Shown in pieces: positions 11,813-32,119 of a stretch of 34,081 nt of DNA. Both the position numbers and the translations under genes were made by a program. The DNA comes from Caldisericota bacterium. GTDB lineage: Bacteria > Caldisericota > Caldisericia > Cryosericales > Cryosericaceae. The notes beneath the pieces are model-generated. The model was not told where the DNA came from. It saw nothing but the letters and a program-made list of their open reading frames with translations, and did no database searches. How positions within the stretch are numbered: position 1 is the stretch's first letter; every line of letters starts with the position of its first letter. Location: NCBI GenBank assembly GCA_026390155.1, contig JAPLGL010000153.1, positions 1-34,081 on the forward strand, written 5' to 3'.

Positions 11813-11823
11813 AGGGTTTGGTT

Positions 11824-12033: not shown

Positions 12034-12076
12034 TTTCCCGTCTCCGTGAGGACGACGCCCTCGGCTGACCGTCGTA

Positions 12077-12287: not shown

Positions 12288-12299
12288 GAGGTGACGCTA

Positions 12300-13508: not shown

Positions 13509-13691
13509 AGACGCCCCCAGATCCGGGAATGCCGTCTCCATCTCGAGGCAGGATCCTCTTCCTGTGTCAAGCCCCCGGAACCTTGAACGTGCGCGGACCG
13601 ATTGTCAGTCAGGGCAGCGACGCTCAGCGGACTCAACCATACGTACTATGCGCGGCATGACCGGTCAGATCAATTGCGCCGCTCTCGGAAT

Positions 13692-14705
13692 CTAGTCTGC
13701 CGGCTTCTCCCGCTGATCCAGGTAGAAGTACCACACGCCCAAGTCCTTCTGATCTTGTTTGGCGTCGCTTGGATGTTGACCCTGCTTCTCCCGCGACCTG
13801 CCGATGGCCTGCGCCTGCTCTTTGGTTCCATGCACGCGGACGAAGTGGCGCCCACCCTTGGTGGTTCCTTCCTCGATATCGCCCTGTGTCTCTTGGGTAG
13901 TATCGACGGGTGCAGATCTTGCGACAGATGCAGCAGACTGACGGGATGCCGTGACTTTGTCTGGTCTGCCGACACCAACGGCCGAACTGGCATCTATCTC
14001 CAGCGGCTTCGCGTGCTTGATAGCAAGGCACAGCGTCTCGATCTGCTCCAACGTCAACACGACATCGTGGTGCCGGTGGATCTCCTGGGTCGCCGCGATG
14101 CCACCTTCCACGACCGGCATGCCACAGTCGTCTTCCACCTTGAGCTTTTCCAGCTTCTTGAACACAACGATGGGGTACAGATGCTCTCGAGCCATGTGCA
14201 GTTCCGGAACGGCCGTCCGCATCCATTCGTACAACAACTTGATGTGCCGCTCGTTTTGCGACACCGGATTGCCGTCCAGCTGGACCAGATGCCTGCCCTG
14301 CCACATACGGCATCCGCGGTGATTGCAGATGATGGAACCGCTCCAGGTTTTGGTCTCCAGCACGAACACGCCAGTGGTGCAAATCACGATGTGATCGAGC
14401 TGGATGAACTCGCCCGAATGCACCTCGAGCACAACGCCGTCGAACACGTTATACGATTTGGATAGCCAAAGGGAGAGAGCATCCGACACCGTTCCCTCAC
14501 CCCCTGCTCCCTGTGCATTCCACTTGGCGCGCGTCGCTCTGAAGTCCATATTGACAAGAGGCTTAGCAATCCAGGCCAGCAGTCGTGGCAGGTTGTCGTC
14601 CACTCGCTGATTCATCGCCAGCCGTTCCAGTTCCACCTTGCGACGGATGGCCTCACGAAGTGCTTGCTTGACCTCCAGATCCTGTGACCAGTAGGTAGCA
14701 AACAT
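13692..14705 (-). CDS. NERD (nuclease-related) domain protein
   Basis: GEFIQLDHIVICTTGVFVLETKTWSGSIICN is the NERD D...ExK core; GGEGTVSDAL upstream. Confidence 0.85.
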   Translation of the reverse strand: MFATYWSQDLEVKQALREAIRRKVELERLAMNQRVDDNLPRLLAWIAKPLVNMDFRATRAKWNAQGAGGEGTVSDALSLWLSKSYNVFDGVVLEVHSGEFIQLDHIVICTTGVFVLETKTWSGSIICNHRGCRMWQGRHLVQLDGNPVSQNERHIKLLYEWMRTAVPELHMAREHLYPIVVFKKLEKLKVEDDCGMPVVEGGIAATQEIHRHHDVVLTLEQIETLCLAIKHAKPLEIDASSAVGVGRPDKVTASRQSAASVARSAPVDTTQETQGDIEEGTTKGGRHFVRVHGTKEQAQAIGRSREKQGQHPSDAKQDQKDLGVWYFYLDQREKPAD

Positions 14706-14741
14706 CCTCTATCCTTCCTTCAACGTGATGGTCACGCCACT

Positions 14742-15203
14742 TCACTCGAGACCATCTACCGGTCTATTCACATTATCACAAACATGAGGAACAATCACAG
14801 CATCCTGTCCCAAACGGCCCCATGCCTCGAGGAACATGCTATTTTCGTATCCGACCCGCTCGAGCCAATAGGAGACTTTGCCATCGCGCTCATTGCGATG
14901 AGCCAGTGCTGTGACCTCATCCGGTGTTAGAACATAGGCACAAGGTGAACCAGAGGCCATCTGGCTGACTACGACCCAATAGTCGCCCATCATCCTCTCC
15001 AGTGAGTCACCGAGAGGAATGGCGTCGCGCTTGCTCACCGTCTTGACCTGTATGCCGCAGAAGCTCTTTGCATCAGGACTATAGGCGATGATGTCTATGC
15101 CGCGTGCATTGCGCGCTGTTGGCATGACGTTCCAACCCAGCAGAGAAAGCTTGTAACAGCAGTAGTACAGTCCTGCATTGCCTGTTACCTGAGCATTACC
15201 CAT
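14742..15203 (-). CDS. Small PD-(D/E)XK nuclease-like protein
   Basis: MGNAQVTGNAGLYYCCYKLSLLGWNVMPTARNARGIDIIAYSPDAKSFCGIQVKTVSK: GID...QVKT core. Start chosen inside the longer ORF. Confidence 0.7.
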   Translation of the reverse strand: MGNAQVTGNAGLYYCCYKLSLLGWNVMPTARNARGIDIIAYSPDAKSFCGIQVKTVSKRDAIPLGDSLERMMGDYWVVVSQMASGSPCAYVLTPDEVTALAHRNERDGKVSYWLERVGYENSMFLEAWGRLGQDAVIVPHVCDNVNRPVDGLE

Positions 15204-15855
15204 TGTTGACCTCCTTCTGCTTCCCGCCCTCTCCAGCATCCCCCGAGTCAGCCTGCCACAACTGATACTCGACCTCCAACGGACACTCGTCCCGGAAACG
15301 ATCCCGCACCCACTGCTGGCACTGCATGTATCGATTGTAGTCGTCGAGCCTGCTCCAAGCACAGCCAAGAGGTGACATCCCAAGTCCTGTCAGGCGTTCC
15401 AGCACGACATTGTCTAGCGCCACATGCGCCACGCCGTACACATGGTGAAATCCAGGCATCCGACGCTCGCCCAAGGCGATCGCGTATTTGATGGTCATAT
15501 TGATCCACTTCTGAGCCTGGCCGACCGACAGTGAGGAAAACCCGTGGTCTGAGGAGATCTTCCTCAGCATGTCGACCGATTCGTGGTGCCATGCGTCAAA
15601 CGACGCTTGAGTCCAAGCATGCTGGCCAGGGAGTATCGTCAGGCGATCCTTCAGGACGCGGAGCATTGCCGTCCTCCAATCCGAATGAAGCTCTCCAAGT
15701 TTGCTCATGCCGTGGAGTGTACGGTTCATGTCCAGGTAGGCACGCCGTATGCAACGGTCAAGCCAGTCGCCCTCGCGCCCGAAGTAGCACACGGCCACAA
15801 AGTCATCCCAATCGCTCACAGAAACTGCATGCCGTACGGAGGGTCCACCGCTCAC
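15196..15855 (-). CDS. Uncharacterised protein, about 220 aa (SVGQAQKWINMTIKYAIALGERR motif)
   Basis: Open frame with GTG start overlapping the upstream stop (GTGA) behind ggaggacaag. 8-nt overlap with the downstream gene. Confidence 0.7.
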   Translation of the reverse strand: MSGGPSVRHAVSVSDWDDFVAVCYFGREGDWLDRCIRRAYLDMNRTLHGMSKLGELHSDWRTAMLRVLKDRLTILPGQHAWTQASFDAWHHESVDMLRKISSDHGFSSLSVGQAQKWINMTIKYAIALGERRMPGFHHVYGVAHVALDNVVLERLTGLGMSPLGCAWSRLDDYNRYMQCQQWVRDRFRDECPLEVEYQLWQADSGDAGEGGKQKEVNNG

Positions 15856-16991
15856 TGCTTGTCCTCCATCTGATTGATGCGGCCGATAAGCCAACCAAAG
15901 AAGTCAGTAAGGTGCGCAAACGATGCTTCGGATGCAACCTCCGCCAGTCGAATGCTCGGCCGTTTCTGCATCATCTCGTCTGTGACTTTCTTTTTCAGCA
16001 GCTTCTCAGCACGTTCTCGGAGCTCCTCGTACGCTTCTGGATTAGAGAATGGAGGCTTCTGAACCATCCACTGCAGGTACAGCTCCACCGTCCCATTGGT
16101 CCATACGGCGCACAATTGGTTCTTCTGCCCAGCTACGAAGAGCACGGGATGGAACTCCCCCGCGGTAGACCCGCGCCCCCAGCGAATCTCTACCCCGGGA
16201 TACTCCCGAAACCATTTGAGCAGACGTTCTGCGGTGCCTGTGTCTCCAGCATGACCCGTCTGCAGCGCCTCGAAGAAGGATGCCTCGTCCCACCCGTGTC
16301 CGGACAACACCTGCTTGCGCGCAGTAGCTTCCGACGTCTGACCGATGACTTTCGGCACGAGCGCTTGGGTAGAACCTTCGGCGAACTGCTTGATTTCGAC
16401 GGCCAGTACTTCGGCAGGATCCATCTGCTCATTGAGAAACTCAACGATGCGCTTCAGTTCCTCGGGAATCTGATCGGCAACAAACAGCATCCGGACGTTG
16501 CCACTCCGAAGGTTCTCCTTGACGGTTCCCCAGAATTTCTCTGGCTCCTGTGACCCCGCCAGGAAAATACCGAGCTCCTCAGCGCTGTCGCGTTTGCGCG
16601 CGACGCACGTGCGTTCAAATTGCTCCATGATATGCTCGATTGGCCAGTAGCGAACGCCGTTGGCAGCATAGTCCAGCATCTGCCCGACGACCTCTCGCCG
16701 GATGCGCGTGTCAGTCGCCCTCTTTACCTCGACCAGCGTTGGTACGCCATCTTGATCGATGAACAGGTGGTCAAGATGCCATCGACCGGCTCCCGATTCG
16801 TCACCGGGAATGCTGATCTCGCGTTCAACGAGTAGCCACCGGCGCGGATAGGTCTCGTCCATCTGGTCACCGCCCAACAGCTCCGGATAGTTGGCCAGTA
16901 ATGCTTGCAGGCGGTCCTCCGAATCGTACGCTCGTTCCTCCATCGATGTCAACTTCTCCCCCTCGTGCAACAGAAAAATGCGATGTTTCAC
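15852..16991 (-). CDS. DUF91/NucS-like PD-(D/E)XK endonuclease-like protein
   Basis: GRWHLDHLFIDQDGVPTLVEVKRATDTRIRREVVGQMLDYAANG. Confidence 0.75.
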   Translation of the reverse strand: MKHRIFLLHEGEKLTSMEERAYDSEDRLQALLANYPELLGGDQMDETYPRRWLLVEREISIPGDESGAGRWHLDHLFIDQDGVPTLVEVKRATDTRIRREVVGQMLDYAANGVRYWPIEHIMEQFERTCVARKRDSAEELGIFLAGSQEPEKFWGTVKENLRSGNVRMLFVADQIPEELKRIVEFLNEQMDPAEVLAVEIKQFAEGSTQALVPKVIGQTSEATARKQVLSGHGWDEASFFEALQTGHAGDTGTAERLLKWFREYPGVEIRWGRGSTAGEFHPVLFVAGQKNQLCAVWTNGTVELYLQWMVQKPPFSNPEAYEELRERAEKLLKKKVTDEMMQKRPSIRLAEVASEASFAHLTDFFGWLIGRINQMEDKQ

Positions 16992-17032
16992 GGGCTCTCC
17001 CTTCGGTACTCTGCCACGGGTCGCAGCTTCGC

Positions 17033-18073
17033 TCAGTTGTTGTAGATGCCTGTTCGGCGAAGAATGTCGGATGCGCTGAGGAGATGTTCCAGCACTCTCT
17101 GGACGTCGTTGACATCCCAGAACACGAGCTTATCCGCGAGTGCATATTTCAGCCCTTCCACTTCATGGCGAATCCGCTCGAGCTGGGAAGCGTCGGAGAC
17201 CGCGACGATCTTCTGAACACTTGGGTCCGTCGCCGCCTTCTGCAGGTTCAGCACGAGACTATCGATCGAACCGGACTTCTGAACTTCGAACACCATTTTG
17301 ACCACGCCGAGATTGCCGATGCGAGCTGTCCAGATGCAGTCAACGCGCGCGCCTTTGCCAACAAACACCTCTTCTTGGGAGGTGAATCCTAGCGTCACAC
17401 CAATCTTGTCGATGGCTTCCTTTATCTCATCGTGACTCCACCCCGCGACAGCAGGAGTGATAACCCCGACAGCCTCTCCTGCTACCTGTGCCAGCCAGTA
17501 GAAGCAGAAGTCCAGAATGTAGTAATCTCCTGGGAGCCCTGCCTTTGCGAGCGTGCCGGCCAGCGCCTCGCATCTGCCAATGAAGGCGCGATACTGAGCC
17601 GGCGTGAGGCTGTAAGTCTTCTGAAGCTCAGGTAGCACCCCCAGCTTGCCTAGTGCAATGCGCGTCTGTTTGTTCCATGGGATGAACTGATCAGGGTGCA
17701 GATATGACAGCGCCTCACTAATGGAGGATGGCCCCATGCCGTGGAATGAGCCAACCATAGCAGCATATGTCTCAACCGGGTCTCTGGGCGCATAGAGCTC
17801 CCGCAGGTACCGCACCACCGTTGGCAGTCCGCCACTGTTCATCTCGACAATACGCCCGGCATAGTAGGACTTGTTGCCCCAAACAGCCATTGACCATAGA
17901 TGACCAAGGACCTCCTCCAGGGTCGACGTCGTGAAATCGTCAAGCTTCCCTCTCAGGTCCTTCTGAAAGAAGTGCTGATTGATGTCTCGTTCGGCAGAGA
18001 TTTCCTTGCCCTTTTCTGTCTCGAGAAACGCCTTGAACTCCAACATGTAGCTTTCGATCGACTTGTCTGGCAT
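17033..18073 (-). CDS. Restriction-endonuclease-like protein associated with the type III-like locus
   Basis: From MPDKSIESYMLEFKAFLETEKGKE. C-term GARVDCIWTARIGNLGVVKMVFEVQKSGSIDSLVLNLQKA resembles a PD-(D/E)XK core with ExQ. Confidence 0.65.
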   Translation of the reverse strand: MPDKSIESYMLEFKAFLETEKGKEISAERDINQHFFQKDLRGKLDDFTTSTLEEVLGHLWSMAVWGNKSYYAGRIVEMNSGGLPTVVRYLRELYAPRDPVETYAAMVGSFHGMGPSSISEALSYLHPDQFIPWNKQTRIALGKLGVLPELQKTYSLTPAQYRAFIGRCEALAGTLAKAGLPGDYYILDFCFYWLAQVAGEAVGVITPAVAGWSHDEIKEAIDKIGVTLGFTSQEEVFVGKGARVDCIWTARIGNLGVVKMVFEVQKSGSIDSLVLNLQKAATDPSVQKIVAVSDASQLERIRHEVEGLKYALADKLVFWDVNDVQRVLEHLLSASDILRRTGIYNN

Positions 18074-18281
18074 TACCTTCTCCTTTGGCTTCCAGCCGTC
18101 TACATCAGTCCGGGTACTCCACGCAGCCCAGCGTTCCAATAGCTTTCGAGGGCGTCGCAAACCGCTGTCTCGCCTGCACAAGTAGCGGCACCTGGTTACT
18201 CCACAATTCGTTCTTCTGCAACCACGCTCGACCATCCCTGCAGGTGCAGTACGTGCTCTCTGAGAGAGTCTACTATCAGTG

Positions 18282-21053
18282 TCACTCTATGCTCTCCAAA
18301 AGATGACTGAGAGTCCTCGACCGTCGACAATCAAAGTCGATCTGGTTCACACGGACGAAACGCCACGTGGTCCCCGTTTCCTTGCTGACATGTGCACACC
18401 ACTGCTGTATTGCTTCGTCCTTCGCCTCAGTACCCTCCCAGACGCGACCCTTGGTTTCAATAATCCAGTTGACCTCGCCAGCCCTGGTCTTCTGCACCAC
18501 GACCCAATCGGGGTGGTAGAAGCCAATCGCGCCTGTGGGTTTGAGGTAGTCCACACGAAACTGGGATCCAGACTCGCCTTGCTCGGTCGTGCCGAGAGCG
18601 GCGAAGCGTAGCACGTCAGACACTTGATCAAGAAACTCGGCAAATCGGCGTTCGAATCCGTTGTAGGTGGCAACGTAGTTGAAGATGGTCTTCTTCGCAA
18701 CCAGGGGCTGTGGTTTGAGATCGCGCCGCCAACTGAACGGCGTCGTATCGGACAATCGGTAGTCGGCCCTCTCGAATTCGATAGTGCGACGTTCGACGGT
18801 TAGCTTGGCAATCGTGCGCGCGAGGTACTTGGCAATCCCTTCCTGAATCTCCAGCCGCGCAAGGTGCGAACGGATAGCTTCACTCTCAAGATCGACCTCT
18901 TTGCCGAAGCAGCGTGTAGCGACGTAGGCTCGCACTAACGGATACAGCTCGGCGAAACGGTTTGGAAGCTTGGCCCGGTCAATGACCTTGTTGGCAATAG
19001 AGCTGAGCAGCAGCTGGGGTAGTGGCAACTCACCAGGTACAATATCAACTCGGTGGACCTCTGTGCCCGTCATGGCGAAGTCAAGTTTCAGCTTGAGTCG
19101 GAAGACTTCGGACAAATCCTCTTGCTCGTAGATTGGCTGCAGCGCTCCAACGTCGAGATCGTCGAGCTTGCGCACGTCGTGCGTGAGACTCGGTTTGGTG
19201 ATTGGGATGGCGACATCGTATGCTGACCGTTCCTGCACTGGCTGGATGATGATTGGCATAGGTGGACCGGCCTTGGTGGTCGCGACGCCGACACCATCAG
19301 CTTCCAGTTGGGTACGAAGGACATCGAGCAGGTTGCGCGTTCCAAGCACCTCCAGCGTTTGTGTTCGATCGGGGCCTATCTCGAGTGGCATCAGGCGCAA
19401 GCCACGACCAATGACCTGTTCGGGGAGGATCTCTGCCCGGGCAGTAAACGGACGCAACCCGAGGACGACTGTCACGTTCTTCACATCCCACCCTTCCCGC
19501 AGCATCATCACACTCACAATAGCCTTGACCGGGCTATCTGGCTGGTCGATGTCACGAGCAGCGTCACGAGCAGCGTCGAGATCACCCTTGGTGATCTCAC
19601 CCTTTGTATCAGTGTGGATGACCAGCACCTCCGACTGCTTGAAACCGAACTCCTTGGTCTTCCGCAAGTACTCGGCCAATGCATCAGCGTGCACATTCTT
19701 CTCTGCCATGACGAAGAGCACAGGCTTGAAACCCAGCTGCTTGTAGACATGCCAGTGCTCCTTCCAGCGGGTCACGGCAGCTCGAATCCAGTAGCCATAC
19801 TTCTCGGCAATGTTCTCCTTGGTGATGCCGTCGGGATCGTGTGGAGCTTGTCTCGCGTTGTCACCCCCGGTGACGATGATGGGTGCCTTGATGATGCGGT
19901 CTTCCACTGCTTGGGCAAGTGGGTAGTCGACGATGGTCCACGGGTAGTACCTGCCACCCTGGTCTTTGGGAGTTGCAGAGAAATCGAGCCACAAGCCAAG
20001 ACCCTTGGGCAACGCTGTATAGATTGCGAGCAATGACTGGTTCCACTTGAGGTCCTCGTCATGCACGTGATGGGCCTCATCATTGATAACGACCAAGTCT
20101 TTGAGCGACTTGACGCGTTCCAGCATCGAACGCTGACTAGCTGCAAGGTCCATGATCGGCTTCTTGCCAAGAAGGGCATCGACCGCATTCTGCGGAGTCC
20201 ACGGCTGGTCGCGTGACTCATAGAGTTGTTGAATGTTCGTAAGGAAGAGATTTCCCGAGGCATCGGGCTCCGTAGCATCGCCTCGCAGGATCACCTTCAG
20301 CGCAAACTGCCCCTTCCACTCCGGTGGAATGAGTGGTAGCTGGCTGAAAATGCGGTTGCACCCGAAGTCCTTTTCCAGTCGCTGATAGACGATGACGTTC
20401 GGTGCGACAATCAGGAAGTTGGTCGAAAGCTCTGACTCAGGCACACGCTTCTTGTGGAAGTACGACCAGACCACCGCCATCGCCATGACCCAGGTCTTGC
20501 CTGAGCCCGTTGCCATCTTGAAGGCAAACCGACGCAAATTCTCCTGCGGAAGGTCTTGCAGGTCCTCCTTGTCTACCTCAGGAATGTAGCGGTGAAGTTG
20601 CCTCTGACCGTCCATGGTGGTCTGAAACTCGATGTTTTTCGAGAGCAAGTCGTTCTGAAAGATCGTGGCGTAGTTCTCGACCAATTTCTGTGTGTCTCGC
20701 TCTCCCGCAATCTCGACTAGCCAGACCAGTGTCTCAATTGCCTCACGCTGACAGAACCAGTACCGGAACGGCGCCGGGAAGCCAGCAACCTCATGGTCTT
20801 CATCAAACCAGTATCCAAACAGGCGCTTGGTGACATCAGAGGAACCGGGGTAGCCGTGCTCGCGCCATGTATCCACCTTTGGACGGATCTTCGGCACGAG
20901 GAGCAACTGGCTGGGGCGACGGCCGCCCGTCTCCTCCCGCCACTCGGTTGGTGCAGCCTTGTCCTTGACGAGATAGGAGGTCGGCCTATCCCACGGGCAA
21001 CGTCCTGCTATCTCGGGCAGGTCCTTGTCGTACGCGATGACAGCCTTGGCCAT
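18282..21053 (-). CDS. res: Type III restriction-like Res subunit (SF2 helicase plus PD-(D/E)XK)
   Basis: FKMATGSGKTWVMAMAVVWSYFH, VVINDEAHHVHDEDLKWN, PEQVIGRGLRLMP, C-terminal VNWIIETKGRVWEGTEAKDEAIQQWC. Confidence 0.92.
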   Translation of the reverse strand: MAKAVIAYDKDLPEIAGRCPWDRPTSYLVKDKAAPTEWREETGGRRPSQLLLVPKIRPKVDTWREHGYPGSSDVTKRLFGYWFDEDHEVAGFPAPFRYWFCQREAIETLVWLVEIAGERDTQKLVENYATIFQNDLLSKNIEFQTTMDGQRQLHRYIPEVDKEDLQDLPQENLRRFAFKMATGSGKTWVMAMAVVWSYFHKKRVPESELSTNFLIVAPNVIVYQRLEKDFGCNRIFSQLPLIPPEWKGQFALKVILRGDATEPDASGNLFLTNIQQLYESRDQPWTPQNAVDALLGKKPIMDLAASQRSMLERVKSLKDLVVINDEAHHVHDEDLKWNQSLLAIYTALPKGLGLWLDFSATPKDQGGRYYPWTIVDYPLAQAVEDRIIKAPIIVTGGDNARQAPHDPDGITKENIAEKYGYWIRAAVTRWKEHWHVYKQLGFKPVLFVMAEKNVHADALAEYLRKTKEFGFKQSEVLVIHTDTKGEITKGDLDAARDAARDIDQPDSPVKAIVSVMMLREGWDVKNVTVVLGLRPFTARAEILPEQVIGRGLRLMPLEIGPDRTQTLEVLGTRNLLDVLRTQLEADGVGVATTKAGPPMPIIIQPVQERSAYDVAIPITKPSLTHDVRKLDDLDVGALQPIYEQEDLSEVFRLKLKLDFAMTGTEVHRVDIVPGELPLPQLLLSSIANKVIDRAKLPNRFAELYPLVRAYVATRCFGKEVDLESEAIRSHLARLEIQEGIAKYLARTIAKLTVERRTIEFERADYRLSDTTPFSWRRDLKPQPLVAKKTIFNYVATYNGFERRFAEFLDQVSDVLRFAALGTTEQGESGSQFRVDYLKPTGAIGFYHPDWVVVQKTRAGEVNWIIETKGRVWEGTEAKDEAIQQWCAHVSKETGTTWRFVRVNQIDFDCRRSRTLSHLLESIE

Positions 21054-21055
21054 GG

Positions 21056-22960
21056 CTACTTCACCTCTGCGTCGAAGGCCTGCGTGGTGTCATTGCCGAA
21101 GATGTCGATGACCTTGACGAGGATACGGTACCTACCCGGTTTCTGGTAGATGTGCACGTCAGAGGAGAGCGGAAGGCTACGGTCTTTGCGTGTGCGATAG
21201 GCGACCCAGCCCTGGATGAAGGTATCGTTCTGGAAGTCCCAGTCCACGGCCCAGTAGTCAATGTAGTCGGACCACTTCTTGACCTTGCTGCGCACGTCTT
21301 CCGGGATCAAATCAGTGTTAGGGATAACGAAGTCCTTGAGCGTCACCTGCGTTGTGAGCTTCCTGGACTGCTTGATCTCAGCCTCCAGGTAGGCCAGCTC
21401 GAAGAAGTGCACGTCACCCTTCACAGCCGCCTGCTGTTCCATCACCTCGCGCGGAATCTGCAGCAAGAGGAGCTTCACACCCTTCTTCTTTGCTGCTTCG
21501 ACCATCAGGTCGTACAAGCCCATTTCCCACTCCCAGCCCAAGACATGCAACTCGTTCTGCTTGAACCGCACGCACTCATCTACCGCCGCGCTAATCTCGT
21601 CGATGGTCACCGGTGCGTCCACAGCGCCGACGTGAACCATGGCCTTGCCTTTCTGACCATGAATGTGGCTCATCCCAGGAACGGGCTGGGCACCATACAG
21701 CTTGAGAACGAACGCCAGATACTCATAGAGAGCATGTTCGTTGATCGGTTTGTCCTTGGCTCCGGCGAAGGTCACGCCTTGCCAGTACTGGCGCTCGTAC
21801 TTGCCGAGGTTGAGCACCTCGAAGGGACGGCAATTCTCGATTTCGAGGAGCCGTTTTCGGGCCGTGTTTACCGCAAAACGGCCTAGGTCGCAGCCAATCC
21901 ATCTGCACCTGCGTTCAGCCAGACCAAGTGATTTCTCGCCTTTCTCTCCACGAACTACGCGGAGGCCCTCAGCGACGACAAGAGTGGTACCGCTGCCACA
22001 AAACGCATCCAGCACGAGGCCGTTGGGAGGTGCAGACGAATCGATGATTCTCTGTAGGAGTTCCACGGGCTTCTGCGTTGGATAGTAGCATACGCTCCTT
22101 TCCTGCTTCTCTGATGGCATGATCGGCTGGATAGTCCACCAGTCCTCTGGATGCTTGCCAAGCTCGTTAGGCTCGTAGTCTCGATACACCTTGTCGCCCC
22201 GGAAGACGTTGGCCTTGTTCTTGAGGCGCTCAATGCTGGCTTCTGAGTATGGGATCCGAACTGGATCAACGTCGAAGTAGTACTCGGGACCCTTGCTATA
22301 GCGCAGAATCGTGTCGTGCTTCGCAGCGAAGTCCTTTTCGGGTGTCCCTCCGCCGCGATAGCACCAGACAATCTCGTTCCTGAGGTTCTCCTTGCCGAAA
22401 ACCTCGTCCAGCATGGCCCGCATCAGGTAGTTTACTCGTGAGTCGCAGTGGACGTACACGACACCAGATGGTGCCAACAGCTCCCGCATCAGGATCAAAC
22501 GATCGAAGATCATCGAAAGGTAAGAGTCGATGCCCCGTCCCCAGGTATCCCGATATGCCTTTTCCTCAATAATCGACTGTTCCTTTGTGATCTCATCGCC
22601 CGACTCGCCGATCTCCGTCGTGAACGAGAAATCTGCTCCCGTTGCAAACGGTGGGTCTATGTAGATGAGGTCGATCTTGCCGGCAAACTTCTCCAGCAGC
22701 GAACCCATGACCAGCAGGTTGTCACCCCAGATGAGCTTGTTCTTCCAGCCATCCTCAAACGTATCCCCCTCTGTGCCCTTGTAGGTCTCGAAGAGGGACT
22801 CTTGCACTGTCTTCTCCGCCTCACGGGTAGCACGGCTTTCGTTGACGGCCTCAATGACCTGGAAGGGCAGGCTCACCTTCGGCACTTCCTTGAGTGTGCC
22901 ATCATCGTTGTACTTGCCGGGCCAGACCAGTTCTGTCTTTGTGATGTCTATCTTTGCCAT
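21056..22960 (-). CDS. mod: Type III-like DNA adenine methyltransferase (Mod), beta-class motif order
   Basis: KIDLIYIDPPFATGADFSFT (motif IV) precedes PNGLVLDAFCGSGTTLVVAEGL (motif I); YPTQKPVELLQRII. Confidence 0.92.
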   Translation of the reverse strand: MAKIDITKTELVWPGKYNDDGTLKEVPKVSLPFQVIEAVNESRATREAEKTVQESLFETYKGTEGDTFEDGWKNKLIWGDNLLVMGSLLEKFAGKIDLIYIDPPFATGADFSFTTEIGESGDEITKEQSIIEEKAYRDTWGRGIDSYLSMIFDRLILMRELLAPSGVVYVHCDSRVNYLMRAMLDEVFGKENLRNEIVWCYRGGGTPEKDFAAKHDTILRYSKGPEYYFDVDPVRIPYSEASIERLKNKANVFRGDKVYRDYEPNELGKHPEDWWTIQPIMPSEKQERSVCYYPTQKPVELLQRIIDSSAPPNGLVLDAFCGSGTTLVVAEGLRVVRGEKGEKSLGLAERRCRWIGCDLGRFAVNTARKRLLEIENCRPFEVLNLGKYERQYWQGVTFAGAKDKPINEHALYEYLAFVLKLYGAQPVPGMSHIHGQKGKAMVHVGAVDAPVTIDEISAAVDECVRFKQNELHVLGWEWEMGLYDLMVEAAKKKGVKLLLLQIPREVMEQQAAVKGDVHFFELAYLEAEIKQSRKLTTQVTLKDFVIPNTDLIPEDVRSKVKKWSDYIDYWAVDWDFQNDTFIQGWVAYRTRKDRSLPLSSDVHIYQKPGRYRILVKVIDIFGNDTTQAFDAEVK

Positions 22961-22974
22961 GTTGGTCGTCCCTC

Positions 22975-25900
22975 CTAAGGTTGTCTTCCTTCATCCGGCA
23001 ACGTCGAATCGCTCAACTGAGCCACACTAAGCCAGCCGTGGTCGAACGTGAAGGTGCGAGCCTTGCCCGCCGGGTCCTGAATCCGCACGATGTGTGCAGC
23101 ATTTGGCGAATCAGCATGCTCGACTACGTAGAGCCAGTAGGCGTGTCCGTGCTCCCGAGCCCATTCAAATTGCGTTCGCGACAGCCCTACTGGACGGCTG
23201 TGCAGGTCGCCCGTCATCGCCTTCACCTCGACCCAGCGGACCATGTGGCCCTCTTCGCCGGCTTCGAAGAGATCGTATCCGGGGTTGTCAACGGGAGTGC
23301 GATGGAGTCCCGGTTCGACGTCCGTAATCAACGAAACGGCCTTCTCCTCCAGCGCCATCCGAGTCCGTTGATCCAGACCATCAGGATCCGAGTCCTCATC
23401 GTCCGGTTGCACTCCGACGTAGGAGATGAAGGGCCTCCCGCCGATACTCCCGGGTGTGCGCTTCCCTCCTCCCTCACCAACGCCTTCCGTCCGGCTATTG
23501 GCTTGGCCACCGGCAGCCATATCAGTATGAGGGCGGGGCGGGCCAGCTGGCCCGGCACCACCGTCCATACCATCCCTACCCGCGCTCGGCTGCTCAACGC
23601 CAGACGGAACTGGCGCGGGAGGTGTCGGAGCAGGCGCCCCGCCAAGCAACCTCTGTGCAGCTGCCCGTGCGTCGTTCGGTGCCGTCGCATCGGGTTCGTC
23701 TTTGATCCGCAGCGCAGCTCTGAGTGCTGTCTCAGTCGTCAGACCTAGTTCCTTCAGTAGATCGAGCACCCCGAGCTCGACGCCTGCCACTTCGGCGGGA
23801 GGTTCCACCGTTGCCGGCATGAAGTGGACTATGGACTGGAGAAAACTGTCTCTCTTCCAGCCAGTTGTCTCAAACGAGACCAACCCTGGTAGCTGAGGCT
23901 TGCCATCTCGACCTGGTACCCAACCAGTGCTGCTCAGCTGCCGAACGAAGGCTGCGTCAAACTCACAGGTGCGTTGAGTATAGAAGAACCAGTGATAAGT
24001 GCCCGAGAAGACACGCGAACCGCTCTCTTCTTCAACATCGCACAGGGCGTCCCAGAGCAATGCGGCTTTCCTGCCAGCGACCGCAGGGTCAAGCAACGGG
24101 AAGCTGCCCAGCAGCTCCTCAAGCCCGCGAAGGGAAAAGTCCTCAATCGTTTCAGCGCCAGTGCTTCCCGGAAAGCCGGCGTCCTTGCGCATATCGCCAC
24201 GTTCATTATAGGTGAACTGTGCCTTCACGGACACAGACTGAAGATAGGGAGCACAGCCACACTCGGCAAGCAATCCTGACACATCGTCGCCTTGTAGGCA
24301 AACGCACGTATCGTCAACAAGAAGCACCCCGGCCACGCCTCCGAACAGCCCTGTCAGAGACTCTGTGGCCAGGTAGACTGCACCGGGCGTTGCCCACTGC
24401 AATACCCTGTCACCTGCATCCCTCGCCCTAACAAAACGCGTCTCGCGCAAAGCTGACAGCAACTTCTCCCGCTGGCTGGTCGAGTCACAGTGCCATGCAG
24501 CAAGGATGCGATGCATGTCAGCCTCATAGTTCTCGGCACATACATCGATGTCTTCTCCACCATACTTGGGCAGCACGTTCCGAACAACGTCGTCCACGGG
24601 ATCAGCTTCGGCGAGCCCGAGCGAGGCAAGGAACGTCTCTGCGCCTTCCGTCGCGCATACGGCCCGACGCACAGTCGGAAAGCCGGTTTCGCCAGGACTG
24701 GGTAGAAACACCTCTGGTTGACCGTACGAGTGGACCTCAACGTGCGTGCCGTCCTCCAGACGGACCAGGGGCAGGCTATGCAATCTGCCCTGCCTCAGCA
24801 GTGCAGGCTGACCGTTGAGGAACTCGTACAGTCGCACGATCCAATCATCTGGTTGCGATTCAAGAAACTCTTTGTCGAGCTTCGGAACGATCACTTCGGG
24901 TGTGACCTCGTCGACCTCGAGTACCTGCGTGAGGTACTGCCTCAGGTCTGGAGTACGATCCTGCGAAATATCGCCACTAAGCCAACGAAGGTCTCCTCCG
25001 GCGCCGTACAGGACCCCGAGTTGGTGTGGATTGAGAAGCTCTCTCAGCTCCAGTGTCCGGGCAATCTTCGCTTGGCTGGCTGCCACGTACCCGCCGCCGA
25101 AACATGGCAGTAGAGGCTCCGCGATCAGAGCATGGCGAACCACTTCGAACAGCGGGCCAAACATTCTATCTTCCGCGAACTGCATGGGATCAAGCGGAAG
25201 ACACCCCAACACGGCCGTGTCGAGCATGTCATGGTCTCGCAGCCAACGCAGCGCTTCCACGAGGAGCTTCGCCGTCTCCTGGACCAAATGCTTGTTCCAC
25301 GGATCATTGAGCGACACATTGTCCCTGCTTGGCGTGGTGTTGTAGGGACCCTGCACCAGGAAACCGAGATAGGTCGGCACCACAGTCGGAAACGAGACGA
25401 CCAAGGGAGAATCGCTGACCGCCTGAATCGATCTGTACCCAGATTCGTCAGCCTGAGTCATCAGGAAGGCAATCTCCACGTGACCAGCGACTTCGCTCTT
25501 GTCCGTCGTCACTTCTCGCGCGAAGACCGTCCATGTTTCCTCTGTCACAGGCTTGCCTTGCTCCTCTCCCACGAGCGTGACACGGCGCACTCCCTTGCCC
25601 ATCTCCTTCGGTTTGTCGCGCAGGTAGTGGCCAGAAGAGCCCCCTTCGACGCTCCAGGAAATCTCCTCGATCTGACGCAGGAAGAGGAGGGTCCGAGACC
25701 CGAGCCTCTGCAGCCCGGACACAATGTCCTCACGTGCTACGGTGTCAGTGTCACGGAAGGGGAAGACGAAGACGGTTTCTTCTGGCTGTGCTTGCACTGG
25801 GCCAATGGCCTTCGGCCACACAAGGGATTCAATCACAAAGTGTTCATCACCTGAATGGACTTCAGGGCGGTCGGTGAAAGCAAATACTGACTTGAACCCT

Positions 25901-26220
25901 ATCCCAAAGCGGCCGATAGAGCTGGCGTCTTTCATGCTCAAGGCGATGCCACAGATGCCACGAACGTCCCCATTCGTGAACGGCGTGCCGTAGTGCGAGA
26001 CGCTCAGCTGAGTATCTGACAGCCTGAATGCGACGGCACGAGAGCCATTCCATGCCTGGCGTCGAGCGAGAGCATCCTCCGCATTCTGCAGGAGTTCATA
26101 GATGAAGTGGCTCCGATCAGCATATCGGTCGGTGATGAGTAATGGACCATACCGAGGAACGTCGTCCCCGTACCGCCTCTTGTTCTCAACGAGAATGGCC
26201 TCGTAATTTGATGCCGTCAC
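22975..26220 (-). CDS. Sacsin-type GHKL (HSP90-like) ATPase with C-terminal DUF3883 nuclease-like domain
   Basis: HFIYELLQNAEDALARR (N box), GRFGIGFKSVFAFTDRPEV (G boxes), C-term NPGYDLFEAGEEGHMVRWVEVKAMTGDLHSRPVGLSRTQFEWAREHGHAYWLYVV. GTG start shares 1 nt with the upstream stop (TAGTG). Confidence 0.87.
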   Translation of the reverse strand: MTASNYEAILVENKRRYGDDVPRYGPLLITDRYADRSHFIYELLQNAEDALARRQAWNGSRAVAFRLSDTQLSVSHYGTPFTNGDVRGICGIALSMKDASSIGRFGIGFKSVFAFTDRPEVHSGDEHFVIESLVWPKAIGPVQAQPEETVFVFPFRDTDTVAREDIVSGLQRLGSRTLLFLRQIEEISWSVEGGSSGHYLRDKPKEMGKGVRRVTLVGEEQGKPVTEETWTVFAREVTTDKSEVAGHVEIAFLMTQADESGYRSIQAVSDSPLVVSFPTVVPTYLGFLVQGPYNTTPSRDNVSLNDPWNKHLVQETAKLLVEALRWLRDHDMLDTAVLGCLPLDPMQFAEDRMFGPLFEVVRHALIAEPLLPCFGGGYVAASQAKIARTLELRELLNPHQLGVLYGAGGDLRWLSGDISQDRTPDLRQYLTQVLEVDEVTPEVIVPKLDKEFLESQPDDWIVRLYEFLNGQPALLRQGRLHSLPLVRLEDGTHVEVHSYGQPEVFLPSPGETGFPTVRRAVCATEGAETFLASLGLAEADPVDDVVRNVLPKYGGEDIDVCAENYEADMHRILAAWHCDSTSQREKLLSALRETRFVRARDAGDRVLQWATPGAVYLATESLTGLFGGVAGVLLVDDTCVCLQGDDVSGLLAECGCAPYLQSVSVKAQFTYNERGDMRKDAGFPGSTGAETIEDFSLRGLEELLGSFPLLDPAVAGRKAALLWDALCDVEEESGSRVFSGTYHWFFYTQRTCEFDAAFVRQLSSTGWVPGRDGKPQLPGLVSFETTGWKRDSFLQSIVHFMPATVEPPAEVAGVELGVLDLLKELGLTTETALRAALRIKDEPDATAPNDARAAAQRLLGGAPAPTPPAPVPSGVEQPSAGRDGMDGGAGPAGPPRPHTDMAAGGQANSRTEGVGEGGGKRTPGSIGGRPFISYVGVQPDDEDSDPDGLDQRTRMALEEKAVSLITDVEPGLHRTPVDNPGYDLFEAGEEGHMVRWVEVKAMTGDLHSRPVGLSRTQFEWAREHGHAYWLYVVEHADSPNAAHIVRIQDPAGKARTFTFDHGWLSVAQLSDSTLPDEGRQP

Positions 26221-29078
26221 TAGTCTGCCTCCTCCGCCATGATCCCCTCTGAGTGGCACAGAAGCCGCAGATCGCACTCTCTGCAGATCGATGCCACCGG
26301 TGACTGCGTGATCCGATAGTCCTTCGCCTGAATGCGCTGGACAAGGTTGTCAAACGCCGCAGCCGCTTCATCGATCTGTTCGGTCCGGTAGGGAAAGACC
26401 ATGAGAGCCTTGTCCTTCTCCGGTTCCGCCGTCCAGTAGAGCATCATGCGATCAACGTGCTGCCCATACCGTTGCTCCAAGATGTGTGCATAGGTGCAGA
26501 GCTGTCGTTCATAGGTATCCAGCAGCGCAGCACTGTCTGCAGGCCGAGCCGATGTCTTGAAGTCAAGCAACTCGAGCTTGCCGTCACCGCCCAGCAACAG
26601 ATCGATCTTGCCGGTCAGGATGTAGCCCTCCTTCTCGAGGGACACGTCCACTTCAGTCTGGATCACGCGGCGCATCTCCGCCCGATTCTGGCGGAAGTAG
26701 TTGATGACTTGGGAGAGGGCGGCTACGCGGGCAGCGTCGCCAATTGGCCGGACATCACTGAGAGACAGGAACCGGAAGGTACGGTCGAAGAGCTCATGGA
26801 TGCGTTGCTCGTCCAACGTATCAAGACCGCCATCCAGAACGATGCGGTGAATCTCCTCGATCGTCTCGTGGACCAACAAGCCAAAGAAGATAACGGCCGA
26901 GCGAGACGGTGTGAAGTCGTACTCGCGGAAGAACTGGTACTGGCGAGGGCAGGTTTCATAGAGCCTGAGATCTCCGGTGAAGCTGAAGGACCGCTTTACC
27001 GGCATCCGCTCATGGAGTGTGAAGTGCTGGGCAGCAAGGAGCTCCTTCTGCACGTAGGGCCATTGTGGCAAACCTTGCCAGATCGCCGCAAAGTGAGCCT
27101 TTGGCTCCTCATGAGCAGTGAGAACCAGCACTTTCTGCGGCCGCGAGAACGCAACGTAGTGAAGCCGCATCCGGTCGAAGAGCGTAATTCGACCCTCGGG
27201 CTCGAATGGCAGGCGCTTGTAGTAGGAGCCAAGGACATGATCTACCTGCTTGGAACTGGACAACTGTGAGCTGAGACTCCCAACGACAACGACCGGGAAT
27301 TCGAGTCCCTTAGCCTGGTGTATGGTCATGACCTGAACGTGACCTTTTGGAAACGGTCGGTCCGGGTCCTCATATTCGTTGATGCCACCGTCATAGAGGA
27401 GTCGAAGGAAGCTGCCAAATAGACTGAACCGCAGGGACTCCCGGTTGCGGCACGTTATGCCCGTGTAGTGATAGTAGTTTTGAAACGTATTCAAGAGCTG
27501 CGAGAAAGTCGCCAGGTTGTGCGCAGTGTTCTCGTCCTTCACGGCCTGACCAAACGGGGTAAGAGCGAGCAGACGGTAGAAGTAGTCTGCAGGACGGAGT
27601 TCAAGAGACTCACCTTCGCTGAGGGCAGCAATCTCGGTGACCCATGTCTGGAGCGACAGGGCCAAGGGATGTGGTGGTGCATAGGCCTTGGCCAGCTCAA
27701 CAATACCCGTGTCTACGTACTCTGCGAGGTCGGCGGTGGACCCTGTCACGGGGCCGCGCCCGTCGCTGTGCCAGCCAAGAATCACCGCGAAGCAGGCGAC
27801 CATGAGACGGATCTCATTGTTGTCAAAGTACGCACGTGCTCTCGGACAGAAGGCGGGGATACCTCTGCCCCTGAGGGCAGTGAGATACGGACCACTGTGG
27901 TCCTCCCGAACGCTGTGCAGGAGAAGCGCGACCTGGCTGTAGTCCTCGATGACATCGTTCTGCTTGAGGAATACGACGAAGTCAGCGAACCGCTCAGCCT
28001 CGTCATGAGCATCCCTACCCCAGATACCGATGACGCCCGGATAATCGGGCTTGGGTGCGCGTGGATCAGGTTCAATCTTCTTCTCGAACCGGAAGGGCGA
28101 GCCGTTGGGGTTGGACCAGTCAATCGACGACATCCAATGGTCGTAGCGATTCACAATGGCGGGGTGAGAGCGATAGTTGATCGTCAGTCGAATGACACGA
28201 CACTTTGGAAACCGGCTCGGAAACTCGAGAATGTTGCGCACGGTCGCGCCACGAAAGCGGTACAGACTCTGGTCTTCGTCGCCGACAACGCACAGGTTTC
28301 GCGTCTCTGCAGTCAGTCTCAGGAGTACCTGCTCCTGAACGAAGTTGGTGTCCTGATACTCGTCCACCAGCACATAGCGGACTTCTCTCGTGAGCCTGCG
28401 ACCGCGTTCCGGATCTGCAAGCAGTCCATGAACGATGCTCTGCAGATGCGAGAAGTCAGTGCAGTTGTTCGCCACAAGAGCCGCCTCGTATGCCTGGTAG
28501 GAGCGGGCGACGCCCTGCAGGAACCCGTGAGATGAGTCCAGCAGGATGTTCCGGTCAATCAACTCCTCCGTGATCTTCTCGAAGTAGCTGCAAGCCCCTT
28601 CGATAGCGGTCCAGCGCGTTTTCCAGTGGCCCAGGTAGAAACCGTCGCTTACGGGTCCAATGATGTCGTCGAAATGCTCATGGATGAATAGAAGTTGCGT
28701 CAATTCATCAAGTGTCTCGTAGCCATTCCCAAGTTCTGTCCAGTTACGATGCTGAACGATGATCCGGTTGCACCATCCGTGAATGGTCGACACCTGCAGA
28801 TCCGACAGGTTTCCCTGGTAACCGACTTCCCGAGCAGCAGCAGACAACCGGTCACGCATCTCAAACGCTGCTTTCTCCGTGAACGTGCACAGGACGATTT
28901 CCTTCGGGGCTGCTTTCCCAAGGAGAAGCAGGTTGAGCGCACGTAGTACAATGCTATAGGTCTTGCCCGATCCGGGTCCTGCGACCACAAGCAACGGCCC
29001 CTCGTCGTGCGCAACGATCTCACGCTGCGCGGAGTTCAGATCCGGATAGTGTTCGAGAATGGCGGGCGCGATGGTCAC
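26220..29078 (-). CDS. UvrD/PcrA-like SF1 helicase with C-terminal Cas4/AddB-like PD-(D/E)XK nuclease
   Basis: LLVVAGPGSGKTYSIVLRAL, VLVDEYQDTNFVQEQVLL, VMTIHQAKGLEFPVVVV, GKIDLLLGGDGKLELLDFKTS, Cys residues YETCPRQYQFF and CRECDLRLLC. GTG start (GTGA overlap with radC stop). Confidence 0.9.
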   Translation of the reverse strand: MTIAPAILEHYPDLNSAQREIVAHDEGPLLVVAGPGSGKTYSIVLRALNLLLLGKAAPKEIVLCTFTEKAAFEMRDRLSAAAREVGYQGNLSDLQVSTIHGWCNRIIVQHRNWTELGNGYETLDELTQLLFIHEHFDDIIGPVSDGFYLGHWKTRWTAIEGACSYFEKITEELIDRNILLDSSHGFLQGVARSYQAYEAALVANNCTDFSHLQSIVHGLLADPERGRRLTREVRYVLVDEYQDTNFVQEQVLLRLTAETRNLCVVGDEDQSLYRFRGATVRNILEFPSRFPKCRVIRLTINYRSHPAIVNRYDHWMSSIDWSNPNGSPFRFEKKIEPDPRAPKPDYPGVIGIWGRDAHDEAERFADFVVFLKQNDVIEDYSQVALLLHSVREDHSGPYLTALRGRGIPAFCPRARAYFDNNEIRLMVACFAVILGWHSDGRGPVTGSTADLAEYVDTGIVELAKAYAPPHPLALSLQTWVTEIAALSEGESLELRPADYFYRLLALTPFGQAVKDENTAHNLATFSQLLNTFQNYYHYTGITCRNRESLRFSLFGSFLRLLYDGGINEYEDPDRPFPKGHVQVMTIHQAKGLEFPVVVVGSLSSQLSSSKQVDHVLGSYYKRLPFEPEGRITLFDRMRLHYVAFSRPQKVLVLTAHEEPKAHFAAIWQGLPQWPYVQKELLAAQHFTLHERMPVKRSFSFTGDLRLYETCPRQYQFFREYDFTPSRSAVIFFGLLVHETIEEIHRIVLDGGLDTLDEQRIHELFDRTFRFLSLSDVRPIGDAARVAALSQVINYFRQNRAEMRRVIQTEVDVSLEKEGYILTGKIDLLLGGDGKLELLDFKTSARPADSAALLDTYERQLCTYAHILEQRYGQHVDRMMLYWTAEPEKDKALMVFPYRTEQIDEAAAAFDNLVQRIQAKDYRITQSPVASICRECDLRLLCHSEGIMAEEAD

Positions 29079-29758
29079 AACAAGCCTGCCTTCCTGAAGC
29101 TGAATACGTCGTCCGGCGAAACAATGAGATGGTCGACGATATTGAGATGAATGGTTTCCGCTGCAAGCACAAGGGCACGCGTCAAGGTCTTGTCCTGCTC
29201 GCTCGGTTGCACGTGGCCGTTTGGATGGTTGTGTGCAAGAACTAAGGCAGCAGCTTTGCGCTTAAGCGCAGCCTCCACGACTTGACGAGGATACACGGTT
29301 GCTCGATCAAGCGTCCCCTCAGCGAGCCGTTCCACCCCATCACGGAGCAAGCGATAGCTTGAGTCAAGGTAGGCCACTTCAAAGACCTCATCACTCAGCG
29401 CACCGATACGCAAGCGCCAGAAAGCGGAAATCTTGTCTGGTTCAAGCAGCATTTCTGTGTCTTCAGCCGATTGCTGCAGGTACAGCGTTGCAGCAGCGCG
29501 GATGACCTGGAGCGCGACCGGCGTCACTGATCCAATGCCCTTGACTTCCTGCAGCTCCTCAAGTGGCGCATCGAGGATCCCTCGCAGATTACCGAACCGC
29601 GCAATCAACGCCTTTGCAGGCTGTTTGACATCAGAGCGTGGCACGGCAAGAGTTAGCACCAATTCGACGACCTCATAGTCATTGAAGCCGCCAAAACCTG
29701 AGTGCAGGAACCGCTCACGAAGTCGCTGCCGATGGCCTAGACACGACGGATCGGTCAT
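29075..29758 (-). CDS. radC: RadC/JAB-MPN family protein
   Basis: GHRQRLRERFLHSGFGGFNDYEVVELVLTLAVPRSDVKQPAKALI, AALVLAHNHPNGHVQPSEQDKTLTRAL (JAMM-like motif), VDHLIVSPDDVFSFRKAGLL. Confidence 0.93.
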   Translation of the reverse strand: MTDPSCLGHRQRLRERFLHSGFGGFNDYEVVELVLTLAVPRSDVKQPAKALIARFGNLRGILDAPLEELQEVKGIGSVTPVALQVIRAAATLYLQQSAEDTEMLLEPDKISAFWRLRIGALSDEVFEVAYLDSSYRLLRDGVERLAEGTLDRATVYPRQVVEAALKRKAAALVLAHNHPNGHVQPSEQDKTLTRALVLAAETIHLNIVDHLIVSPDDVFSFRKAGLL

Positions 29759-30013: not shown

Positions 30014-32119
30014 TCAGCCAAACTGAGCGCGTCTTGCCTTTGTCATGTCCTCCACCAGCTTCATCTCAGTCGGGATCTCGTCCAGAAAACGGGACGGGTT
30101 CTTCGGCGAGGTAATCAGGTACAGCGCCTCAGATGCGCGTGTCATAGCGACGTACGCTAGCATGCGCTCTGCTTCAAGTTCTATGCCTGCGGTCTCAGCG
30201 TCTGCCGTCGCGTGCAGGATCGGCAACTGTCCTTCGTGCCAGCCCATCACGAATACAACAGGGAATTCAAGCCCCTTGGCAGAGTGAATGGTCATGACCT
30301 TCACCTTCTCCTCGAGGATGTTGAAGGGGCTGTTTCGTTCACGTAGGAGCGTAGGCACGTTGTGCACAGCCAGATACTGCATCACGCGGTCGCACTGCTC
30401 GTTCGTCCGACACAAAATGGCGAAGTCACCGATGCGGAACTCGTTCCCTCCTGCTAAGTCAAGGATGCGGTCGCAAACTGCGGAGACCTCACCGTCTTCC
30501 GATGCAGCAGCAAGTACAACCGGCCAGGGACCGGTCCTCGTTGCTTGCTCTGGGTCGACCCAGTCCTCGGACGCCTTCAGCACCACGTCATGTCCGATGA
30601 ATGCGGCGGCGGCCTGTGCAACCTGCCTGGAGTTCCGGAAGTTGCGGCGGAGGCTGAAGCTGTGTCCCTGCAACGCCAGTCCGGCATACTTCCATGAGTA
30701 GCCCCGGGTGTAGATACTCTGTGCAATGTCTCCTGCGAGGAATAGGGAAGTCCCCATGCGCTGTGCAAGACGGATCTCGACCGCAGTCAGGTCCTGGGCC
30801 TCATCCACGATCACGTGCGCATATGGTGAGTCGAGAGATGCCTGATCCAGGGCTCTGTGTGCCAACAGGGGTAGGTCTTCCCACTCGACCATATTGGACT
30901 GTTCCAGCAACTTCTGGTACTGCTCATGAGCTGCCCAGACGGCCTTGCGGGCAGGGGCCTGCAGACCAGTGCCGCGGCCGATGCGCCGGACACTGAGGTA
31001 CTGTTCGACGGTCGCAAGGCCGATCGCTTTGATCACACAGTGCACCTCCGCCAGAAGGAACCCAATGTCCTGAAGGATCGGATGGGGATTGGTCACTCCT
31101 GCAGACTTCGCTGCCTGTTGCATCAGGTCTGTCTGTTGCTCCTCCACCGGTGTATCCCAATGAGGGCGTCCACGCCGCACGATGAGCCGTGCAGCCCACT
31201 GCGCAATCGTTCGCACCTCAAGTTCCCTGGGCAATGGGTCGCCAATGCGTTCTTTGAGCAGAGTAGTCGCGACCTCACTAAGGGCCTTGCTGAAGGTGAG
31301 GAAGAGGACCGATTCGCCCTTTTCAGCCAAGCGAATGGCACGGTAGAGTGCTACAGTCGTCTTCCCGGACCCGGCGCACCCGCGGAGCAAGACGGCACCA
31401 CTGGAGAAGTCCTTGTCCACGTAGAGCTGCTGCTCTGGTTCCAGATTCAGCATGAGCTGCCGAATCTTGCCTTCGCAGTACCCTTGCAACCGCGAAACAG
31501 TAGTTCTGAAGAAGAGATCGTCCGGCGAGAAGAGTTCGCGTGTCGCTGACTGATCGGTAGCCAACTCTTCGAGCCAGGCTACCGTGTGCTCCAGAAGTCC
31601 TGGCATGGCTTCCAGAACATCGAACCCATCACAATTCTGGACTTGCTTGACCAGCCCCCGTGGCACGCCCAGAACGCGCAAGTGGGCGGACGTCAGATGC
31701 AAGAACGGCTGTTCCTTCGCGATCACGTTTTCACTGGAATCTGATGACTCTACAAACAGCTTGTCATCAGCCGCTGGCTCAGCCACAGCCTGAAGCCGCT
31801 GAAACATTGTCCCTGCAGCAAATGACATGTTGCGAGCGCGGTCGACAATCGAATGGTCTCCAATGTCCCATATGCGAAGCTCGCCTTCGCCAAGGTCGTA
31901 GATGATGCGGTGACTGAGGTTGATATAGCACTCCCACTTGTCATGCACGTTCTTGAGCCCGGTCAATCGATGCGCATTGAGCGACGGATGAAATGGGTTG
32001 GTGGCCAGCAGAGTGAGCTTCTCTGATGATTGATGATGGAGTTCAGCTGGCAAACTACCCAGTGACTCTATGGCCTCGGGGCTCAAGAGAACCTCACGAG
32101 TCATCACCGTCGTTTCCAC
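30014..32119 (-). CDS. RelE/ParE-like domain fused to a UvrD/Rep-like SF1 helicase
   Basis: N-term KLTLLATNPFHPSLNAHRLTGLKNVHDKWECYINLSHRIIYDLGEGELRIWDIGDHSIVD (RelE/ParE pattern). Then VLLRGCAGSGKTTVALYRAI, VIVDEAQDLTAVEIRLAQRM, VMTIHSAKGLEFPVVFVMGWHEGQLP, MLAYVAMTRASEALYLI. Confidence 0.85.
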   Translation of the reverse strand: METTVMTREVLLSPEAIESLGSLPAELHHQSSEKLTLLATNPFHPSLNAHRLTGLKNVHDKWECYINLSHRIIYDLGEGELRIWDIGDHSIVDRARNMSFAAGTMFQRLQAVAEPAADDKLFVESSDSSENVIAKEQPFLHLTSAHLRVLGVPRGLVKQVQNCDGFDVLEAMPGLLEHTVAWLEELATDQSATRELFSPDDLFFRTTVSRLQGYCEGKIRQLMLNLEPEQQLYVDKDFSSGAVLLRGCAGSGKTTVALYRAIRLAEKGESVLFLTFSKALSEVATTLLKERIGDPLPRELEVRTIAQWAARLIVRRGRPHWDTPVEEQQTDLMQQAAKSAGVTNPHPILQDIGFLLAEVHCVIKAIGLATVEQYLSVRRIGRGTGLQAPARKAVWAAHEQYQKLLEQSNMVEWEDLPLLAHRALDQASLDSPYAHVIVDEAQDLTAVEIRLAQRMGTSLFLAGDIAQSIYTRGYSWKYAGLALQGHSFSLRRNFRNSRQVAQAAAAFIGHDVVLKASEDWVDPEQATRTGPWPVVLAAASEDGEVSAVCDRILDLAGGNEFRIGDFAILCRTNEQCDRVMQYLAVHNVPTLLRERNSPFNILEEKVKVMTIHSAKGLEFPVVFVMGWHEGQLPILHATADAETAGIELEAERMLAYVAMTRASEALYLITSPKNPSRFLDEIPTEMKLVEDMTKARRAQFG

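Follow-up and report, generated by a model that had tools for sequence, protein, structure and literature searches.

An operon joining radC, UvrD-Cas4-type helicase-nuclease and sacsin-type ATPase genes to mod and res: a candidate extended type III-like restriction-modification defence system

In a genome assigned to Caldisericota, a mod-res gene pair is preceded by three further genes encoding a RadC protein, a helicase-nuclease and a GHKL ATPase. This locus raises the question whether the three are working parts of a restriction system or passengers beside it. The window, i.e. the whole stretch of DNA that was analysed, covers positions 1 to 34,081 of contig JAPLGL010000153.1 in assembly GCA_026390155.1. 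The source genome is a bin (80% complete, 5% contamination), and therefore the host is uncertain.

Layout and products of the operon

Five minus-strand open reading frames were found, to the base, in the order given in a preliminary description of the window. Gene radC (29075..29758, 227 aa) encodes a UPF0758-N/HhH region and a JAMM-type RadC domain. It is followed by the gene of a UvrD-Cas4-type helicase-nuclease (26220..29078, 952 aa), an SF1 helicase with a C-terminal PD-(D/E)XK domain and a four-cysteine, likely Fe-S, motif. The GHKL gene, called here the slot gene (22975..26220, 1081 aa), encodes a sacsin-type Bergerat ATPase with a C-terminal NOV_C/DUF3883 domain. Downstream of it lie mod (21056..22960, 634 aa), for a type III-like beta-class amino-methyltransferase, and res (18282..21053, 923 aa), for an SF2 translocase with a C-terminal PD-(D/E)XK endonuclease. 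The junctions were also as described: radC and the helicase gene overlap by 4 nt (GTGA), the helicase and GHKL genes have 1 nt in common (TAGTG), and the spacing is 14 nt between GHKL and mod and 2 nt between mod and res. This last gap is 2 nt in all seven loci inspected; at the other end of the operon, the inspected loci have a radC stop that either runs into the helicase start or lies immediately against it. Since order and spacing recur in distant genomes, the five-gene arrangement is not a product of chance. The window's neighbours of the operon do not recur next to the other operons, generic UvrD cross-matches apart, and the unit is therefore taken to run from radC to res. Promoter and terminator scans gave a signal no higher than in shuffled sequence.

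Inspection of the sequences revealed intact catalytic motifs in RadC, the helicase, Mod and Res. The radC product matches Pfam PF04002 (E=7e-33), scores above the cut-off of NCBIfam TIGR00608 and retains the JAMM-type motif HNHP..S..D; proteins 42-73% identical to it occupy the same position in L017, L131 and L133, and RadC stands there in further loci too. RadC proteins are very widely distributed, and their role is disputed in the literature. The helicase protein combines PF00580 (UvrD, E=2e-59) with PF12705 (PDDEXK_1, E=3e-26), a Cas4/AddB-like nuclease domain, and also matches TIGR00372 cas4 (E=9e-13). It carries a Walker A motif, DEYQDT, a D-FK nuclease motif and four cysteines (C710, C932, C935 and C941), which, like the main helicase motifs, are invariant in 11 relatives.

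Mod matches N6_N4_Mtase (PF01555, E=3e-44) and, over nearly its full length, PADLOC MTase_III (E=3e-128), with motifs in the order DPPF (at 102), variable region, FCGSGT (at 320). When eleven clade-A Mods (the clade is defined below) were compared, identity was 0.18-0.42 at residues ~151-300 and mostly ~0.6-0.87 in the other blocks, with a second dip to 0.36 at residues 331-360. To judge from this alignment, the variable region has the pattern of a diversifying specificity domain, as would be expected of a working specificity subunit. Res matches ResIII (PF04851, E=1e-19) and RE_endonuc (PF19778, E=4e-5); its match to NCBIfam BPTD_3080 reaches E=3e-80, yet lies below the cut-off of that model. 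It contains GSGKT, DEAHH at 325, PD at 848 and ETKG at 866, resembles the PADLOC REase_III models weakly (best E=5e-19, over part of the profile), and had no match by sequence among solved structures. The motifs of Mod and Res are those to be expected in type III enzymes, whose hallmarks are hemimethylation and an ATP-dependent cleavage that requires two inversely oriented unmethylated sites.

In the GHKL protein, Pfam identifies SACS (PF25794, E=4e-14), the only ATPase-type domain found, and NOV_C (PF13020, E=7e-8), and among PDB sequences the sacsin N-domain chains match best (E=1e-12). PADLOC TmtA, which we take to be the protein of Tiamat, matches with E=2e-63, the best stretch aligning residues 50-416 with profile positions 38-443 of 1655; a different TmtA profile matches the C-terminus. 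At 1081 aa, however, the protein is shorter than most of the TmtA profiles matched, and the matches are part-length. The NOV_C pattern N-P-G-[YF]-D...E-V-K is conserved. AlphaFold gave no usable model of the full ATPase (4 sequences, mean pLDDT 43); for the NOV_C end (5 sequences) mean pLDDT was 48, and a fold search of the PDB with that model found no match. Because both models are of low confidence, the nuclease assignment of NOV_C is based only on its conserved motif and on the literature, which describes DUF3883 as a novel REase domain (PMC3710099). The PADLOC 2.0 search that the preliminary description had proposed recognises parts of the operon (TmtA, MTase_III, REase_III); the helicase and RadC were not singled out as members.

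Elsewhere in the window, positions 8743-16991 hold AbiEii, two AbiEi-like genes, AAA_14-DUF4143, a NERD-domain protein and a PDC-S11 candidate (15852-16991), so that the window looks like a defence island. A UvrD-type helicase is encoded upstream of the operon (30014-32119, minus strand); its first ~100 residues appear RelE/ParE-like by eye, and the layout is similar to that of ArmD of ARMADA (RelE-like plus GajB-like UvrD, PMC12458937). This gene is not conserved beside other operons.

Recurrence of the operon and occupancy of the slot

The arrangement radC-helicase-[slot]-mod-res was found in 16 loci, termed clade A, whose helicases are 46-72% identical: the window; L017, from the same class as the window's genome; L131, L132 and L133, from IMG/VR contigs; and the whole-genome loci L257, L258, L259, L260, L261, L262, L264, L269, L270, L271 and L278. 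By our reading they cover four phyla (Acidobacteriota, Planctomycetota, Actinomycetota and the window's own) as well as phage contigs. Where the upstream sequence is visible, radC stands 5' of the helicase gene in 13 of 15 loci, being missing in L132 and L270. A downstream mod is present in all 16, and res follows in 12 of the 13 loci with sequence beyond mod, the exception being L261, in which a truncated mod is followed by transposase and recombinase genes. In the helicase tree (34 rows, L278 left out) the radC-bearing loci group in a single clade (SH-aLRT 96), within which radC seems to have been lost twice. As for the reach of the searches, those based on Res led to few loci, and a profile search of genome contigs with the helicase alignment returned mostly ordinary UvrD proteins.

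All five genes are complete in L278, a distant genome found by a GHKL-first search, and the five-gene order is also present in phage contigs L131 and L133; in the fifth locus with a sacsin-NOV_C protein the sequence ends before res. The order is not unique to the window's genome, given its core in 16 loci and the full set in L278. In L133 the operon (9258-22432) adjoins terminase, portal, head protease and major head genes (3227-8716) and reads radC-helicase-GHKL-(gene pair including HTH/M78 peptidase)-mod-res. The L131 operon adjoins CI-like repressor and ParB-like genes, and the L132 contig, by our reading, also holds a tail-tape-measure-like ORF. That L133 lies beside phage head genes and L131 beside a phage-type repressor indicates that phages or prophages carry the system as well.

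Beyond clade A, a tblastn search of plasmids with the helicase gave 211 records, 20 of them with at least 80% query coverage (~27-36% identity). The helicase-mod-res trio without radC, termed clade B, occurs on plasmids of Pseudomonadota, Bacteroidota and Bacillota, mostly as directly adjacent genes. The neighbourhoods in Nitrosomonas, Tunicatimonas, Blastomonas, Phaeobacter, Spirosoma, Vibrio, Enterococcus and Priestia contain, in that order, a helicase, a site-specific methyltransferase and a DEAD/DEAH-type (or TnsA-N-annotated) gene, with two additional genes separating helicase from methyltransferase in Spirosoma; those of the Annamia and Halobaculum plasmids contain no trio. According to Hudaiberdiev et al. 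(2017, PMC5704561), UvrD-Cas4 fusions occur most commonly in the context of this trio. A third, more distant helicase clade (~26% identity) was seen in L152 (4506-12800) and L056 (9983-18877), followed by Mod and by a Res ~29% identical to the window's; in L056 mod is split in two frames. The position of radC as near-constant first gene of one helicase clade appears to be new.

Between helicase and mod, clade A has a slot that is empty in eight of the 16 loci, and the ATPase is therefore not essential. A sacsin-NOV_C ATPase fills it in five loci (the window, L271, L278, L133 and L131), although the L131 protein is longer (1496 aa), much diverged and alignable with the window's mostly over the NOV_C end. 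The slot of L257 holds a SLFN_AlbA_2-HATPase_c_4 protein, that of L269 a DUF4062-HATPase_c_4-Fic-like_C protein and that of L264 an IS200-like remnant. Of the eight occupied slots in this small sample, seven thus encode a Bergerat-fold ATPase. Such a slot, empty or mostly holding a Bergerat-fold ATPase of several architectures, appears to be new as well.

The GHKL gene is found linked to the trio in two helicase clades. The seven closest GHKL proteins, the window's included, are at least 39% identical to one another, and all of their genes touch the trio or the contig's part of it: those of the window, L133, L271 and L278 stand in the slot, and those of L137, L139 and L266 stand beside clade-B helicase-mod-res genes, from which they are divergently transcribed. 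GHKL-first searches agree with this linkage; the informative cases are L211, L212, L213 and G1838, since G875 and G656 had been chosen as centres for having the module. The preliminary description had allowed that GHKL homologues might occur mainly without Mod/Res. This is not so among close relatives; at ~36% identity or less, GHKL genes (that of G1744 excluded) are found next to other helicases or qat genes, or apart from the trio. The GHKL tree places the clade-B proteins inside clade A, with the window's protein as sister (90/93, moderate support), whereas the helicases of the two clades are clearly separate. The trees suggest that the GHKL gene moved between subtypes yet stayed linked to the system, a pattern for which co-inheritance alone would not account.

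Other gene sets with sacsin-type ATPases were also seen. In L013, a Chryseobacterium plasmid, positions 6945-19322 hold genes for Mod, a small ORF, a Res-like helicase, a 1612-aa sacsin-type ATPase and an ATP-dependent helicase, 20-25% identical to the window's and possibly an independent assembly. In L279 (5503-11783), L280 (5228-11976), L011, L014 and L015 a distant sacsin-type ATPase comes directly after a protein of 1030-1200 aa, which carries the annotation 'helicase-related' in the three plasmid loci (L011, L014 and L015); this makes a second recurrent two-gene set.

Proposed function and rival readings

We consider it fairly probable that the five genes encode an extended, type III-like form of restriction-modification defence. 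The helicase-nuclease, RadC and the ATPase are probably working parts of it, because the arrangement recurs in unrelated bacteria and in phage genomes. We infer restriction activity, degradation from ends and roles for RadC and the ATPase as follows. Mod would recognise and methylate a host-specific site through its fast-diversifying recognition domain, and Res, an SF2 translocase-nuclease, would cut unmethylated invading DNA. The UvrD-Cas4 protein may load at ends or nicks and degrade the DNA in an AddAB/RecBCD-like manner, turning a repairable break into destruction. RadC, with its JAMM metal site and helix-hairpin-helix DNA-binding region, would be an accessory specific to its clade and would most likely serve as a nuclease or in DNA processing. 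The slot ATPase may be an optional, exchangeable module driven by ATP, either detecting infection or linking recognition to a second nuclease; the NOV_C part of the slot protein is a predicted restriction-endonuclease-like domain. The occurrence of the wider helicase-mod-res family without RadC counts against the proposal. As near-constant partner of a restriction enzyme, RadC would offer a direct, selectable assay of its action.

Tentatively, one may go further and see in the locus a distinct multi-subunit restriction class, in which Mod/Res, a UvrD-Cas4 degrader and a near-obligate RadC processing enzyme would be combined with an interchangeable Bergerat-ATPase cartridge (sacsin-NOV_C, Schlafen-HATPase or DUF4062-HATPase) setting the sensing or effector output. 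If the slot exchange holds, it would show the uptake of sacsin/Tiamat-like modules by restriction systems and link the Tiamat family to DNA restriction.

It might be argued instead that one transcript carries two independent systems, RadC-helicase-Mod-Res restriction and an autonomous Tiamat-like GHKL protein acting, for example, in abortive infection. The slot is, after all, empty in half of the loci and its genes are of several architectures; TmtA matches the ATPase, Tiamat is reportedly a single-gene system, and the clade-B GHKL gene is divergently transcribed. Against such independence, which seems unlikely to us, all seven of the closest GHKLs stand beside helicase-mod-res and none was found alone, and the gene kept this linkage though its tree departs from the helicase clades. 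Moreover, the filled slots, with one exception, encode proteins of one ATPase fold, Bergerat, and not a random choice of defence genes, and the window's ATPase is shorter than most TmtA profiles and matched over part of their length.

A simpler reading is that of an ordinary type III restriction system, for which Mod and Res suffice, with UvrD-Cas4, RadC and the ATPase as repair or housekeeping passengers; indeed some chromosomal members of the RadC and UvrD families bear annotations related to repair. We regard it as very improbable, since the helicase-nuclease stands beside Mod/Res across phyla, plasmids and phage contigs, radC is limited to one helicase clade and overlaps the helicase start, and the UvrD proteins in most genomes of the window's phylum are separate, shorter and only ~30-36% identical over part of the query. 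The phage-type neighbours of L133, L131 and L132 and the frequency of clade B on plasmids could also point to a competition (superinfection-exclusion) cassette borne by phages or plasmids and chromosomal only at times. This is scarcely credible as a rival, because the clade-A loci were mostly found in bacterial bins, several of them on long contigs (for example in G251, G1578 and G656) that may include prophages, and because it concerns the carrier of the system, not its mode of action.

We therefore retain the reading of an extended type III-like system. The proposal of such a system with co-expressed additional parts is well supported by the recurrence of the trio, the radC-headed clade and the GHKL linkage. 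The order of the five genes recurs in distant genomes, but they are no fixed set, radC being clade-specific and the GHKL slot optional and exchangeable.

Comparison with known systems

Two known systems were ruled out. Gabija consists of the OLD nuclease GajA and the helicase GajB, and no OLD/Toprim Pfam match was found among the five proteins; the matches of the helicase to GajB profiles lie mostly in the helicase region common to both. Hma (PMC8565338) likewise brings helicase, methylase and ATPase together, but it is a three-gene set with an m5C methyltransferase, whereas the window has an N6/N4-type Mod (PF01555) and Res.

Tiamat resembles the slot protein in being a sacsin-type GHKL with DUF3883, and both ends of the slot protein give TmtA matches; unlike Tiamat, the window's protein is shorter, matched over part of its length and placed inside an operon. 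The MORC/paraMORC operons (Iyer et al. 2008, PMC2292703) combine a GHKL ATPase with methylase, SF2 helicase and nuclease, and include type III-like sets, a published precedent for GHKL ATPases in such operons; DNA looping was proposed there for such ATPases. In contrast, the window's ATPase is of sacsin type with NOV_C, and the extra helicase of the window is an SF1 UvrD-Cas4 protein. The MORC and paraMORC families have a GHKL plus S5 module, and for the ATPase part of the window's protein Pfam gives only SACS. Classical type III restriction-modification (EcoP15I-like) has in common with the window a beta-class Mod with a recognition domain and a Res with SF2 motor and C-terminal PD-(D/E)XK, but the operon has three additional genes.

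In the open-access literature we found no named system of the same composition. That the combination is not a named system thus holds for the whole, but is to be restricted to the combination, because the trio was published in 2017 (PMC5704561) and PADLOC TmtA models recognise the GHKL protein. The UvrD-Cas4/Mod/Res loci come closest: according to that paper, a UvrD helicase fused to a Cas4-like nuclease stands most often beside Mod and Res, and several UvrD-Cas4 loci contain Schlafen-like ATPases with HTH. The window has this context, with the GHKL gene between helicase and mod. In contrast, the main text of the paper contains none of the words RadC, GHKL and sacsin and describes no exchangeable ATPase slot. 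The locus adds a defined subtype to the genomic prediction of 2017.
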